This document shows, piece by piece, positions 11,714-62,428 of a stretch of 64,000 bases of DNA (within the stretch, counting starts at the first letter, position 1; each line of letters starts with the position of its first letter). Position numbers and translations under genes: made by a program. This DNA is from Bacteroidales bacterium (GTDB lineage: Bacteria > Bacteroidota > Bacteroidia > Bacteroidales > P3), in NCBI GenBank assembly GCA_009785505.1, contig WQWA01000002.1, forward strand, positions 1 to 64,000, read 5' to 3'. Under the pieces are notes generated by a model, which saw nothing but the letters and a program-made list of their open reading frames with translations, was not told the origin of the DNA and did no database searches.

Positions 11714-12949
11714 ATGGAAATAGGAACCATCAAACAACGTCTGGGTATAGTTACCGTGAATGCGGAAATGGATCGTGCTATTGAAGTGGCTTGTCAAGTG
11801 GCAGCAACAGATTTGAGTGTTTTGGTTATGGGCGAATCGGGAGTTGGTAAAGAATTTTTCCCGAAAATTATTCATCAACTCAGTCCTCGAAAACACGGAC
11901 AATATATTGCAATCAACTGCGGTGCAATTCCTGAAGGAACGATTGATTCCGAACTTTTCGGACACGAAAAAGGTTCGTTTACAGATGCCAAAGAAGCGCG
12001 AAAAGGCTACTTTGAAATGGCCGACGGCGGAACGATTTTTATGGATGAAGTTGCCGAACTGCCTTTGAGCACACAGGTTCGATTACTACGTGTTTTAGAA
12101 ACCGGAGAATTCATCAAAGTTGGGTCTTCCAAAGCTCAAAAAACCAACGTTCGTGTAGTGGCTGCAACAAATGTAGATATTCCGACAGCGATTTCTCGCG
12201 GCATATTTCGCGAAGACTTGTACTATCGTTTGAATACGATTTCCATTCATGTTCCACCACTCCGGCAACGCAAAGAAGATATCGTACTGCTGTTCCGAAA
12301 ATTTGCAGGCGATATGAGCGAAAAGTACAAAATGCCGGCATTACAACTGACTCCGGACGGAAAAGAAGAGTTGATAAATTATTCGTGGAAAGGCAATGTC
12401 CGACAACTGAAAAACATAACCGAACAAATCTCTATTGTTGAAACCAATCGCGAATTATCCGCTGAAACCTTAAAAAAATATCTGCCAACGGTGGACAGCA
12501 GTGTGCCTGTGTTGCTCGGAAAACAAGGTATAGACAGCATGAGCGAGCGTGAAATTTTGTACGGCGTTTTGTTCGATATGAAACGGGATATTATTGATAT
12601 GAAAAAAGTAATTTCCGAAATAGCCAAAGGTAATATGCCGCATGATTTTCTGCAGAACGAGCTTCACACACTGGCACCAACTTTCTATTCAGAACCTGCA
12701 CAAATTGTGTCGCCTGCGCCTGCACCCGCACAAATTTACAAACCATCCACTCAAAATATACCAACGGAAGAGGTTGGCTTTCACGAAATTCACGATGTTG
12801 AAGACTCGCTTTCATTGGAAAAACGAGAATTAGTTTTAATCAAAAAAGCGCTTCGGAAACATCAGGGAAAACGCCGCGCGGCAGCAGAAGAACTCGGTAT
12901 CTCCGAGCGAACATTATATCGCAAAATTAAAGATTATGACCTTGAATAA
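11714..12949 (+). CDS. Sigma-54-dependent transcriptional activator, no receiver domain
   Basis: 411 residues. AAA+ domain from about residue 8 to 245 with Walker A GESGVGKE, Walker B TIFMDEVAEL, and arginine-finger region FREDLYYRLN; C-terminal Fis-type helix-turn-helix (LGISERTLYRKIKDYDLE). There is no N-terminal receiver or sensor domain, and a ~130-residue linker with Pro/Ala-rich stretch separates AAA+ and HTH. The sigma-54 contact loop reads GSFTDA rather than the canonical GAFTGA, which could weaken or alter sigma-54 contact. Followed by lptE, a conserved order in Bacteroidetes. Target genes are not visible here. Confidence 0.9.
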   Translation: MEIGTIKQRLGIVTVNAEMDRAIEVACQVAATDLSVLVMGESGVGKEFFPKIIHQLSPRKHGQYIAINCGAIPEGTIDSELFGHEKGSFTDAKEARKGYFEMADGGTIFMDEVAELPLSTQVRLLRVLETGEFIKVGSSKAQKTNVRVVAATNVDIPTAISRGIFREDLYYRLNTISIHVPPLRQRKEDIVLLFRKFAGDMSEKYKMPALQLTPDGKEELINYSWKGNVRQLKNITEQISIVETNRELSAETLKKYLPTVDSSVPVLLGKQGIDSMSEREILYGVLFDMKRDIIDMKKVISEIAKGNMPHDFLQNELHTLAPTFYSEPAQIVSPAPAPAQIYKPSTQNIPTEEVGFHEIHDVEDSLSLEKRELVLIKKALRKHQGKRRAAAEELGISERTLYRKIKDYDLE

Positions 12950-13030
12950 TGGTTAATGATTAGTGGTTAATGATTAATGCTTCGCCCGAAGCCGCTATTA
13001 ACCACTAATCATTAACCATTAACCACTAAC
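12950..13030. repeat. Long imperfect inverted repeat of GGTTAATGATTAGT units
   Basis: Left arm made of GGTTAATGATTAGT-type repeats, centre GCTTCGCCCGAAGC, right arm the complementary ATTAACCACTAATC repeats. Similar TTAATGGTTA simple repeats occur at 39946-40004. Could act as an intercistronic hairpin between the activator gene and lptE. Confidence 0.75.
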
Positions 13031-59429: not shown

Positions 59430-60908
59430 ATGAAACACGTTTTTCATAAAATATCTGCTTGGTTGCTTTTTTTCTGTTTGATAGGCTTTTTGTCGTCGTG
59501 CAAAGAAAATAACCATGTGAACATACAACTCGCCCTTGAAAGAACAGAGGTTGAAGGTGAGGTCATCGAACAAATTCTACGTCTTCAAACAGATGCCCCC
59601 GATCAATCTTGGACTATAACCGTTAATCCCGGGGCAGATTGGTGTTTTATTTCTCGGACAAGTGGAACGGGCGAAGCACACATCGTTGTTAGAACTGCCG
59701 AAAATGAAGGAGAACCAAGAACGGCAACCATTACAGCAACTTCCGGAAATTCAACCGTATCTGTTGAGCTGACTCAACTTACCATGACCTTGATTAATGT
59801 TTTTGGAAATACGAATTTCTCGAACTACGGTCAAGATCAAGCACAAACACTTCAAATCAGAACAAACTTGGCATGGACGGCTGAAATTACAGAAGGAAAC
59901 GACTATGTTCGACTTAACACAACTTCCGGAAGTGGAAATGGCGTGATAATAGTTACATTTGATGACAATCCGGGTGGGATACCAAGAAGAGCAAACCTAC
60001 GAATAGCGGTCGAAAATCAGGAAACAAACTTAACGCAAGAAGTAAATTTAACACTAATACAAGGTCAAGCCTATGGAAATTTCGAACGGTATGTTCCGTT
60101 TCGAATCGAATTGCCTTTGGTAAGAGATACAATGTGGTTCATTCAGCACAATGTTGGTCCGATTGTTAACTTTGCTTTGGAATATGATACCGGACAGCGT
60201 CATCCATTTTGGGTGGCGTATCAACTCACTACTGCACATTTCGGAACCATTGACCGACAGAGTTTTACATTCGACCCTAAAATTCCGAGAGAACTTCAAC
60301 CACATGAATTCATTGGTGGTGAAATTAGAATTCCGAGGTACTGGTCAACGTATCGCTACGAGCGCGGACATATCTTGGCTTCGGCAGATCGTACGTTTAG
60401 TCAAGCAGCAAACGATCAAACCAACTTTATGTCGAATATCAGTCCGCATTTGCCGGAATTTCATAACCAGTCGGGAGGCACAGGAAGTGGTCAAGGCATT
60501 TGGCTCAGGCTCGAACATCAAGTCAGATCTTGGGCAAGGATGCAAAATATAGATACGCTTTATGTTGTAAAAGGCGGGTCTATTGTCCCGGGTGCTCCGG
60601 GCACTCAAATTGTGGAAACACTACACAGCCTGAACAGAACAGTTGTCCCAAGATACTACTTCAAAGCACTCGTTCAGCGTTGAGGTGATTCATTTTACGG
60701 TATTGGATTTTGGTTAAGACAGGAAAGAGGAATGGCTCGCAGAGCACCAACACGAGCAGATGCAAGAACTATTCGAGAGTTGGAACATTTAACCGGGATA
60801 GACTTCTTCCCAAATTTAAGAATCGTTGGCGAACAACTCGGACAACCGAATTTGGAAAACGAAGTGGAAACGACTATAAATTGGAGCCGATGGCCCGGAA
60901 TAAATTAG
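59430..60908 (+). pseudogene. BACON lipoprotein with DNA/RNA non-specific endonuclease domain, interrupted by an in-frame TGA
   Basis: Lipobox LSSC (Cys about 23), two BACON-like domains (about 35-115 and 120-210), then an endonuclease G/NucA-type domain with RYERGHILASADR (His314, usual DRGH) and NFMSNISPHLPEFHNQ, the metal-ligand Asn region. The frame ends at TGA 60681-60683 after 417 codons, but the same frame then runs 74 more codons to TAG 60908, and this part (GDSFYGIGFWLRQERG ... LTGIDFFPNL ... WSRWPGIN) has the final strand and helix expected of the family. So the gene carries one nonsense codon near the end. TGA is used as a normal stop elsewhere here, and I see no SECIS-like hairpin. 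The 417-residue product keeps the catalytic core and might still work. It is followed directly by the S23 element. Confidence 0.75.
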
Positions 60909-60943
60909 TATGAAAGTGTGAAAGTAGAAAGTGTGAAAGTATG
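60907..60943. repeat. Left inverted repeat of the S23 element
   Basis: AGTATGAAAGTGTGAAAGT (60907-60925) plus further GAAAGT units; the first two bases are part of the TAG stop of the nuclease frame. Exact inverse copy at 61289-61307. Confidence 0.9.
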
Positions 60944-61285
60944 TTGATTAAGAGATTTGAAGATATTTTGGCTTGGCAAAAAGCACTGGATTTGACTAAA
61001 GAATGTTATGTGTTGTTTGGCGAGTCGAAGGATTGGGGATTTAAGGATCAGATATTAAGGGCATCAGTATCAATTATGAATAATATCGCCGAAGGATTTG
61101 AGAGAAAGTCAAAAAATGAATTTAAGCATTTTTTATCTATAGCAAAAGGCTCTTGTGGCGAGGTACGCTCAATGATAACTCTCGCTAAAGAACTCAAAAA
61201 AATAAATCAAACACAATACAACAAACTGTTCACTCAGTCAGAAGAAATCTCAAAAATGCTTTCGGCACTAATCAAAACTCTATAA
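60941..61285 (+). CDS. Four-helix-bundle protein, S23/IVP (23S rRNA intervening-sequence protein) family
   Basis: 114 residues. FEDILAWQKALDLTKECYVLF, ILRASVSIMNNIAEGFERKSKNEFKHFLSIAKGSCGEVRSMITLAKELKKI match the S23 family, small four-helix bundles found in 23S rRNA intervening sequences of some bacteria and, as relatives, the Avd accessory proteins of diversity-generating retroelements. Role unknown. Here it is not in rRNA but between two secreted-nuclease genes, enclosed by an exact 19-bp inverted repeat. That arrangement looks like a discrete insertion. Confidence 0.9.
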   Translation: MLIKRFEDILAWQKALDLTKECYVLFGESKDWGFKDQILRASVSIMNNIAEGFERKSKNEFKHFLSIAKGSCGEVRSMITLAKELKKINQTQYNKLFTQSEEISKMLSALIKTL

Positions 61286-61287
61286 CC

Positions 61288-61322
61288 CACTTTCACACTT
61301 TCATACTTTTCACTTTCTCACT
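61288..61322. repeat. Right inverted repeat of the S23 element
   Basis: ACTTTCACACTTTCATACT (61289-61307) is the exact reverse complement of 60907-60925, followed by further CACTTTCTC units. Confidence 0.9.
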
Positions 61323-61330
61323 AAAACAGC

Positions 61331-62428
61331 ATGAAAACATTAAAATCGGCCCTTTTTCTTATAGCTTTACTACTGATATCGGTAGTAGGCTATTCGCAAA
61401 CCCATGTCATTGTATCTTACAACGTAGAAAATCTCTTCGACACGTACAGAGATACAACCATTAACGACGGAGATTTCACGCCGGAAGGCAGGTTCAACTG
61501 GACACCGGAAAAATACTGGCATAAAATCGGTCAATTATCGTATGTGATTGAAAGAATTGCCATAGCAACCCGATCGCACACAACCGGAAATTGGCCTATT
61601 TTGATTGGTTTGCAAGAGGTTGAAAATCGCTCCGTACTGCAAGATTTGGCGAATGCACCTCGAATTCGAGCGGCAAGATACCAAATTGTACACTATGATT
61701 CGCCCGACAGACGTGGTGTTGATGTGGCATTTTTGTATTGTGCCGAAACGATCGAATACATATATAGTAGACCTATTCTCGTTAGAGGGGGAGACTTTCC
61801 AACCCTGCGAACACGCGATATTTTGTGGTTTAAAGGACGAATAGACCAAGATACGTTTCATTTTTTCAATATGCACTGGCCTTCTCGTTTGGGCGGACAG
61901 CAAGCTTCCGAACCCAGACGTGAGCTCGCCGCATCAATTTTGCGCCATGTTGTTGACTCTATCAAAGAGGCAGCACCGAATCATCGAATTGTCATAATGG
62001 GCGACTTTAATGATGATCCAAACAATCGTGCGATAGAATATGTGCTGCGTGCCAAAAACAGAAGAAACCTAGGAGAAGGCGATTTGTTCAATCCGTTTTT
62101 CGATATGCATAGAGCAGGGCTTGGAACATTGCCCTTTCGCGGTGCATGGAATTTATTTGATATGATTATAGTGAGCCAAAATATGATTGGTGGTAACGGA
62201 GGATTTCAATTAATGCCTCCGCCAAGACCAGAAACAAGAAGAAATCGCAGAAACCAAAATTTTGAAGGAGTTATCTTCGGCAAGTGCGTGGCTGCACCAT
62301 TTCTTTTTGAACCCCCGGAAGCTGGAAACCGTGCAGGTTACACATTCAGGTCGTTTCTCCCCGGACCGGGAAGATATCATGGTGGCTTTAGCGATCATTT
62401 ACCGGTGTACATATTCATTTCAAGATAA
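61331..62428 (+). CDS. Exported endonuclease/exonuclease/phosphatase family protein
   Basis: 365 residues. Signal peptide (MKTLKSALFLIALLLISVVGYSQ). Motifs of the DNase I-like fold in order: SYNVENLFDT (metal Asn), LIGLQEVENRSVL (Glu), RRGVDVAFLY, FFNMHWPSR (His), IVIMGDFNDDP (Asp, Asn) and FSDHLPVYI (final Asp-His). All catalytic positions are present. Likely cleaves nucleic acid outside the cytoplasm; a phosphodiesterase on another substrate is the alternative. Follows the BACON lipoprotein nuclease once the S23 insertion is ignored, and precedes a TonB-receptor-like gene by 14 bp. Confidence 0.9.
   Translation: MKTLKSALFLIALLLISVVGYSQTHVIVSYNVENLFDTYRDTTINDGDFTPEGRFNWTPEKYWHKIGQLSYVIERIAIATRSHTTGNWPILIGLQEVENRSVLQDLANAPRIRAARYQIVHYDSPDRRGVDVAFLYCAETIEYIYSRPILVRGGDFPTLRTRDILWFKGRIDQDTFHFFNMHWPSRLGGQQASEPRRELAASILRHVVDSIKEAAPNHRIVIMGDFNDDPNNRAIEYVLRAKNRRNLGEGDLFNPFFDMHRAGLGTLPFRGAWNLFDMIIVSQNMIGGNGGFQLMPPPRPETRRNRRNQNFEGVIFGKCVAAPFLFEPPEAGNRAGYTFRSFLPGPGRYHGGFSDHLPVYIFISR

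Follow-up and report, generated by a model that had tools for sequence, protein, structure and literature searches.

Intervening sequences (IVS) with an S23 protein ORF are known from the 23S rRNA of Coxiella and Leptospira. In Coxiella, tandem heptamers (GACAGAT), variable in number between strains, lie before the S23 ORF, and the IVS stem is cut by RNase III in vitro; the authors called the element selfish and repeated older hypotheses of its mobility (PMC4990558). In RAYT/REP/REPIN systems, a gene is flanked by its own locus-specific inverted motif, and gene-less inverted pairs are scattered between genes (PMC3116915). Intergenic tandem heptamers have been described as the STRR of cyanobacteria (Nostoc), GGGAATC of Xanthomonas and TAACTGA of Beggiatoaceae (PMC4692102, PMC4679880). 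Those of Xanthomonas are often inverted pairs (70-75 cases; PMC4692102), and heptamer repeats can be found next to start codons (PMC4679880). A text search for S23 gave 0 matches in these two papers, which make no connection between S23 and heptamers; Xanthomonas campestris, from a heptamer-repeat genus, is the source of the S23 structure 2GSC. A homologous four-helix-bundle protein, Avd, belongs to the diversity-generating retroelements (DGRs) (PMC10053308). The occurrence of S23 in rRNA, of heptamers at one rRNA site and of the heptamer repeats in Xanthomonas, Nostoc and Beggiatoaceae is already published (PMC4990558, PMC4692102, PMC4679880). Searches of an open-access library, preprints excluded, turned up no report that ties S23 genes in general to inverted heptamer arrays beyond rRNA, the Coxiella IVS apart; such a report may exist elsewhere.

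The window (the whole 64-kb stretch of DNA analysed) carries an S23 / 23S rRNA-intervening-sequence-protein gene of 114 aa at 60941-61285 on the plus strand. PF05635 is its sole Pfam match (E = 5.3e-35) and, at 120.3 bits against a curated cut-off of 33.8, places it within the family. A profile search of the PDB returned 2gsc (E = 4.5e-33) and 2rld (E = 6.2e-15) as relatives. The features surrounding the gene, and similar ones elsewhere in the window, are as follows.

59430 to 60683, plus strand: upstream neighbour, an ORF with BACON and DNA/RNA non-specific endonuclease (PF01223), ending at an internal TGA
60905 to 60940, plus strand: 5′ arm, a 7-8-nt array, TTAGTATGAAAGTGTGAAAGTAGAAAGTGTGAAAGT, with the exact 19 nt at 60907-60925
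61289 to 61324, plus strand: 3′ arm, reverse complement of the 5′ arm, ACTTTCACACTTTCATACTTTTCACTTTCTCACTAA, with the exact 19 nt at 61289-61307; closes the predicted stem
61331 to 62428, plus strand: downstream neighbour, endonuclease/exonuclease/phosphatase (PF19580, Exo_endo_phos), starting 6 nt past the right arm; the gene by which the empty site is recognised in relatives
About 12950 to 13025, plus strand: gene-less ("solo") heptamer inverted repeat with 29-nt arms and an 18-nt loop, located where the preceding gene has its stop codon
39938 to 39982, no strand assigned: heptamer half-array beginning TTTTTAATGGTTAATGGTTAATGG, with no obvious S23 gene
Directly after the half-array, to about 39998: a short, different array, TTTACCCTTTACC

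As the preliminary description of this DNA had it, the S23 gene lies between exact inverted arms. The 19 nt of the left arm, AGTATGAAAGTGTGAAAGT, are matched by their exact complement in the right arm at 19/19 positions, and the pairing extends imperfectly to 41 nt (60905-60945 / 61284-61324, 76% identity). The within-locus arm score is 25, whereas 2000 dinucleotide shuffles of the flank averaged 11.6 and reached 22 at most (p<0.0005). The arms had been presented as terminal inverted repeats. The inverted pairing stands, but these are not classical, single repeats: the arms are tandem arrays of 7-8-nt units (GAAAGTGT/GAAAGTA), in the order GAAAGTGT GAAAGTA GAAAGTGT GAAAGT. RNA of positions 60900-61330 has a predicted folding energy of -114.3 kcal/mol (z = -6.3); in this fold the two arms close a single long stem that encloses the S23 gene and overlaps part of its start codon, which agrees with the suggested transcript with the gene in its loop. 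It had also been claimed that the left end overlaps the stop codon of the nuclease frame. There is indeed a TAG (60906-60908) at the start of the left arm, but it ends only the continued frame, the actual ORF being closed earlier by an in-frame TGA (60681-60683). The frame is open at this position in congeners (in G004 there is an arginine codon, and the frame goes on to the position equivalent to 60908), and the TGA is probably a nonsense mutation or a sequencing error.

Only four exact inverted repeats of at least 15 nt with arms within 600 bp were found in the 64-kb window, one of the others being the gene-less heptamer hairpin, here at about 12947-13025, of the same kind as the S23 arms. 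The loop of the hairpin at 12950-13025 is GC-rich (GCTTCGCCCGAAGCCGC). The loop core GGCGAAGC was seen several times among gene-less hairpins of the genus, a recurrence with no statistics behind it.

The window unit shares with the 23S IVS the protein family, a length of about 0.4 kb, the sense orientation relative to the host transcript and complementary ends that are predicted to enclose the S23 ORF in a stem. Unlike the IVS, it sits between two protein genes and not within a 23S rRNA gene, and a search with Rfam found no rRNA in the 64-kb window; moreover, units of this type have arms that vary by locus around a common core, and gene-less versions occur at the same sites. The closest working analogue is RAYT/REPIN: in both, a gene lies inside its own inverted motif, as Y1 genes also do in the genomes studied here, and inverted pairs lacking the gene occur elsewhere. 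However, the window gene is not a Y1 HUH transposase, and S23 arms are 7-nt tandem arrays whereas those of Y1 genes are GC-rich palindromes. As S23 is not a Y1 enzyme, this is a resemblance to RAYT/REPIN and not membership. The Y1_Tnp genes of the same genomes (L366-L376 and further loci) carry locus-specific GC-rich REP-like palindromes, e.g. GCATCCCGTTAGGGATGC, without 7-nt periodicity; their self-pairing is 27.5, against 11.5 in cross-pairing. Unlike Avd in a DGR, the window gene has neither a nearby reverse transcriptase nor template/variable repeats, its neighbours being nucleases and BACON or secretion-tail proteins. Two RVT_1 genes are present in the genome, both on other contigs, and reverse transcriptase was undetected in many S23-bearing relatives.

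The flanks of other S23 loci, whose comparison had been proposed as a check, pair within their own locus, both among Bacteroidales and across many phyla. The assembly containing the window (G000) has four further S23 copies. Three of these are flanked by inverted arrays, each with a sequence of its own (TTTGTAAAGTTCATAAAG, GTGGTTAATAGTCAATAGTTAG and GAGATAAAAGATAAG), and the fourth (on C38) has heptamers at the 3′ side but lacks a clear 5′ arm. PF05635 matches were found in 46 of 61 relatives, with 0 to 17 per genome. The G012 assembly holds 208 heptamer-pattern hits and no PF05635 match. At 77 mobile-type S23 loci of Bacteroidales, the 200-nt 5′ flank was locally paired with the 200-nt 3′ flank, start codons being picked by rule and neighbours by ORF heuristics. 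Self-pairing averaged 21.1, against 11.6 between loci, and the best 7-nt periodicity was 18.3/17.9, against approximately 13.3/13.6 for the flanks of 18 neighbouring genes. A single-copy, core-type family of S23-like proteins of about 165 aa (n = 19) paired equally within (12.3) and between (12.5) loci, and no excess 7-nt periodicity was seen at its 19 loci. This family is probably a branch with another function and serves as an internal negative control.

A further 80 loci came from one scan of a species-representative genome collection, in which a peptide motif was required. They cover Bacteroidota, Patescibacteria, Verrucomicrobia, Lentisphaerae, Planctomycetota, Acidobacteria, Chloroflexi, Cyanobacteria, Proteobacteria, Clostridia and others, and include named isolate genomes (e.g. 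Grimontia hollisae and Flavobacterium strains). Mean self-pairing was 21.6, against 11.1 for cross-pairing. In 2000 partner permutations, the mean never exceeded 13.0 for Bacteroidales or 13.2 for the many phyla. Two conserved 23S motifs were absent at all 80 loci, and the rRNA habitat lies outside this sample. Taken singly, 65-66% of loci beat all of their own shuffles, as did none of the core-type controls; the third or so that fail are attributed to decay or to limits of the arm search.

When units were phase-aligned, a common core R-A-G-T emerged (5′ arm, sense strand), with the remaining unit positions specific to the locus. The core exceeded a null in which positions were shuffled within the unit (2.01 vs 1.50±0.02; 2.49 vs 1.77±0.06). 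However, the RGT pattern read backwards is likewise frequent in array-rich genomes, and the core therefore constrains only partly. Array length has a median of 4.8-5.5 units per arm. The S23 structures 2gsc and 2rld have five chains each, and the title of the 2gsc paper, as given in the reference list of PMC10053308, names an assembly of five four-helix bundles. That five units per arm correspond to five subunits is only a suggestion. At one locus (L041, G006 C7 4500-18600), seven S23 genes lie within approximately 11 kb, several with different heptamer arms, forming a cluster of units.

The junction occupied in the window was compared in relatives, and the empty site that had been sought was found in one congener: in G003 the two genes are 7 nt apart. 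Gene-less heptamer hairpins, in two other sequences, occupy this junction in G001 and G002, and G004 has an unrelated gene there. The latter (L097, G004 C3, upstream of 1501) is PD-(D/E)XK/DUF1016-like, as named by eye; its end repeats GGTATAAAyTAA from the gene before it, which may be a 12-bp duplication. At other S23 junctions, too, the gene is absent from at least one congener. Between permease and HlyD, G000 has an S23 unit whose arms begin at the permease stop codon, and G004 a short spacer with no S23. The gamma-carbonic-anhydrase junction holds S23 in G004, a gene-less hairpin with other heptamers in G000, and nothing in G003. The pyrH and kce junctions have S23 in one congener; no S23 was seen there in others, whose gene order is in part different. 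In the wider family, S23 units whose arms differ occupy the serC-serA junction in G020, G009, G006 and G030, gene-less hairpins do so in G084 and G072, and in G029, G032 and G078 the junction is almost closed, with gaps of 5-14 nt. The occupied cases have GTGATCTGTGAACT, GTGAATTGTGAATG or GTTGAATTGTTTAA units, and each pairs with itself although the sequence differs between genomes, so that the pairing is kept despite sequence change.

Two S23 copies, G000 C33 and G001 C11, share 87% protein identity and have similar arms within unrelated outer flanks, which indicates that the arms travel with the gene. Across all pairs, arm similarity rises only above approximately 55% protein identity. Both features generally expected of a mobile element were found: the unit is present or absent at orthologous sites, and related copies lie at sites that are unrelated. 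A target-site duplication was also looked for, and none was visible at the window, permease|HlyD or carbonic-anhydrase junctions, where the compared sites have diverged. The reading of the locus as a small mobile unit is supported.

Both neighbours could be assigned at 75 loci. S23 is sense to both at 56 of these and antisense to both at 3 (p = 1e-13), the baseline being that 72% of adjacent gene pairs in these genomes share a strand. Selection against antisense copies can be the source of this bias, which is stronger than that of the 31 Y1_Tnp genes (15:5). Genomes with more S23 genes also have more array matches (rho = 0.68, 61 genomes, uncorrected for phylogeny). No constant partner gene was found for S23, and we know of no catalytic motif in the protein. 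Two candidates were rejected as obligatory helpers; their correlations with S23 are likewise uncorrected for phylogeny. Reverse transcriptase numbers correlate weakly with S23 (rho = 0.32, partial 0.20), and the enzyme was undetected in 17 S23-bearing genomes. The Y1 transposase correlates strongly (rho = 0.69), yet no Y1 gene was detected in seven of the genomes that bear S23, and the palindromes beside Y1 genes are of another kind; this rejection covers the obligatory role alone and not that of an occasional helper.

Taken together, S23 genes with their mirror-image 7-8-nt arrays are probably very small mobile genetic units that form a widespread family, one that has largely been overlooked. 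What can be read directly from the sequences is the architecture and its occurrence across phyla, the occupied, empty and gene-less alternatives, the carriage of the arms and the sense bias in operons. Judged by such comparisons, the window likely contains one copy of a selfish unit resembling REP/RAYT, and the 23S rRNA intervening sequences would be a special case of such units. The unit would consist of an S23 gene, encoding an Avd-like, pentameric four-helix bundle, and its cognate inverted arrays of about five 7-8-nt units each. In DNA or in RNA, the protein would recognise the heptamers belonging to its own element, a role in which arms of five units would suit a pentameric ring. It may also help to copy the unit into new positions close to stop codons, and the unit would spread as a REP/RAYT-like selfish element. 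Gene-less hairpins may be non-autonomous or decayed copies. In operon transcripts the arms would pair into a stem, a possible RNase III substrate like the stem of the 23S intervening sequences, and such cutting would make insertion between genes tolerable.

A different reading takes S23 for a passenger, which settles or survives inside heptamer inverted repeats made by replication slippage, template switching or another enzyme (a Y1/RAYT transposase). Template switching would homogenise the arms, and the number of Y1_Tnp genes does follow that of S23. Moreover, gene-less arrays far outnumber S23 in some genomes (467 overlapping pattern hits vs 5 S23 genes in G027) and are present in G012, G005 and G035, where mobile-type S23 was not found; arrays may arise or persist independently. 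However, most mobile-type S23 genes carry arrays in many phyla, and 388 kb of sequence from genomes that lack S23 contained no strong 7-nt array. Arm likeness also goes with protein likeness, and the Y1 genes have REP palindromes of their own that lack the 7-nt periodicity. We consider it unlikely that S23 is a passenger.

Somewhat less likely again is an operon-embedded regulatory or RNA-processing module, in which RNase III cuts the polycistronic stem, an RNA-binding S23 acts on its own or neighbouring mRNA, and ordinary horizontal transfer with rearrangement explains the spread. The 56:3 sense bias, a predicted stem (z = -6.3) lying partly over the S23 start codon and the known RNase III excision of the rRNA version (PMC4990558) all suit such a module. 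It is harder to reconcile with a patchy distribution of 0-17 copies per genome, empty sites in congeners, gene-less versions at the same sites and neighbours that have no evident common function. Finally, the window belongs to an assembly in draft state, with 50 contigs, but chance or an assembly artefact can be given virtually no weight: the arms are significant at the window locus itself (p<0.0005), and the pattern was replicated in 157 loci, named isolates included, a replication by which this explanation is refuted.

A bolder proposal can be put forward tentatively. S23 elements might form a phylum-spanning class apart from all transposon families, in which a nuclease-less pentamer recognises five single-stranded heptamers and inserts its own gene in sense near operon stop codons, possibly by an RNA-level route. 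Gene-less hairpins would then be parasites, and STRR, GGGAATC and TAACTGA footprints of such elements. Tying S23 genes to heptamer arrays gives both a testable function, and rRNA intervening sequences would become one habitat of a general element. The pair of protein and motif is also named, S23 with its own heptamer, and is open to direct binding and mobility assays.
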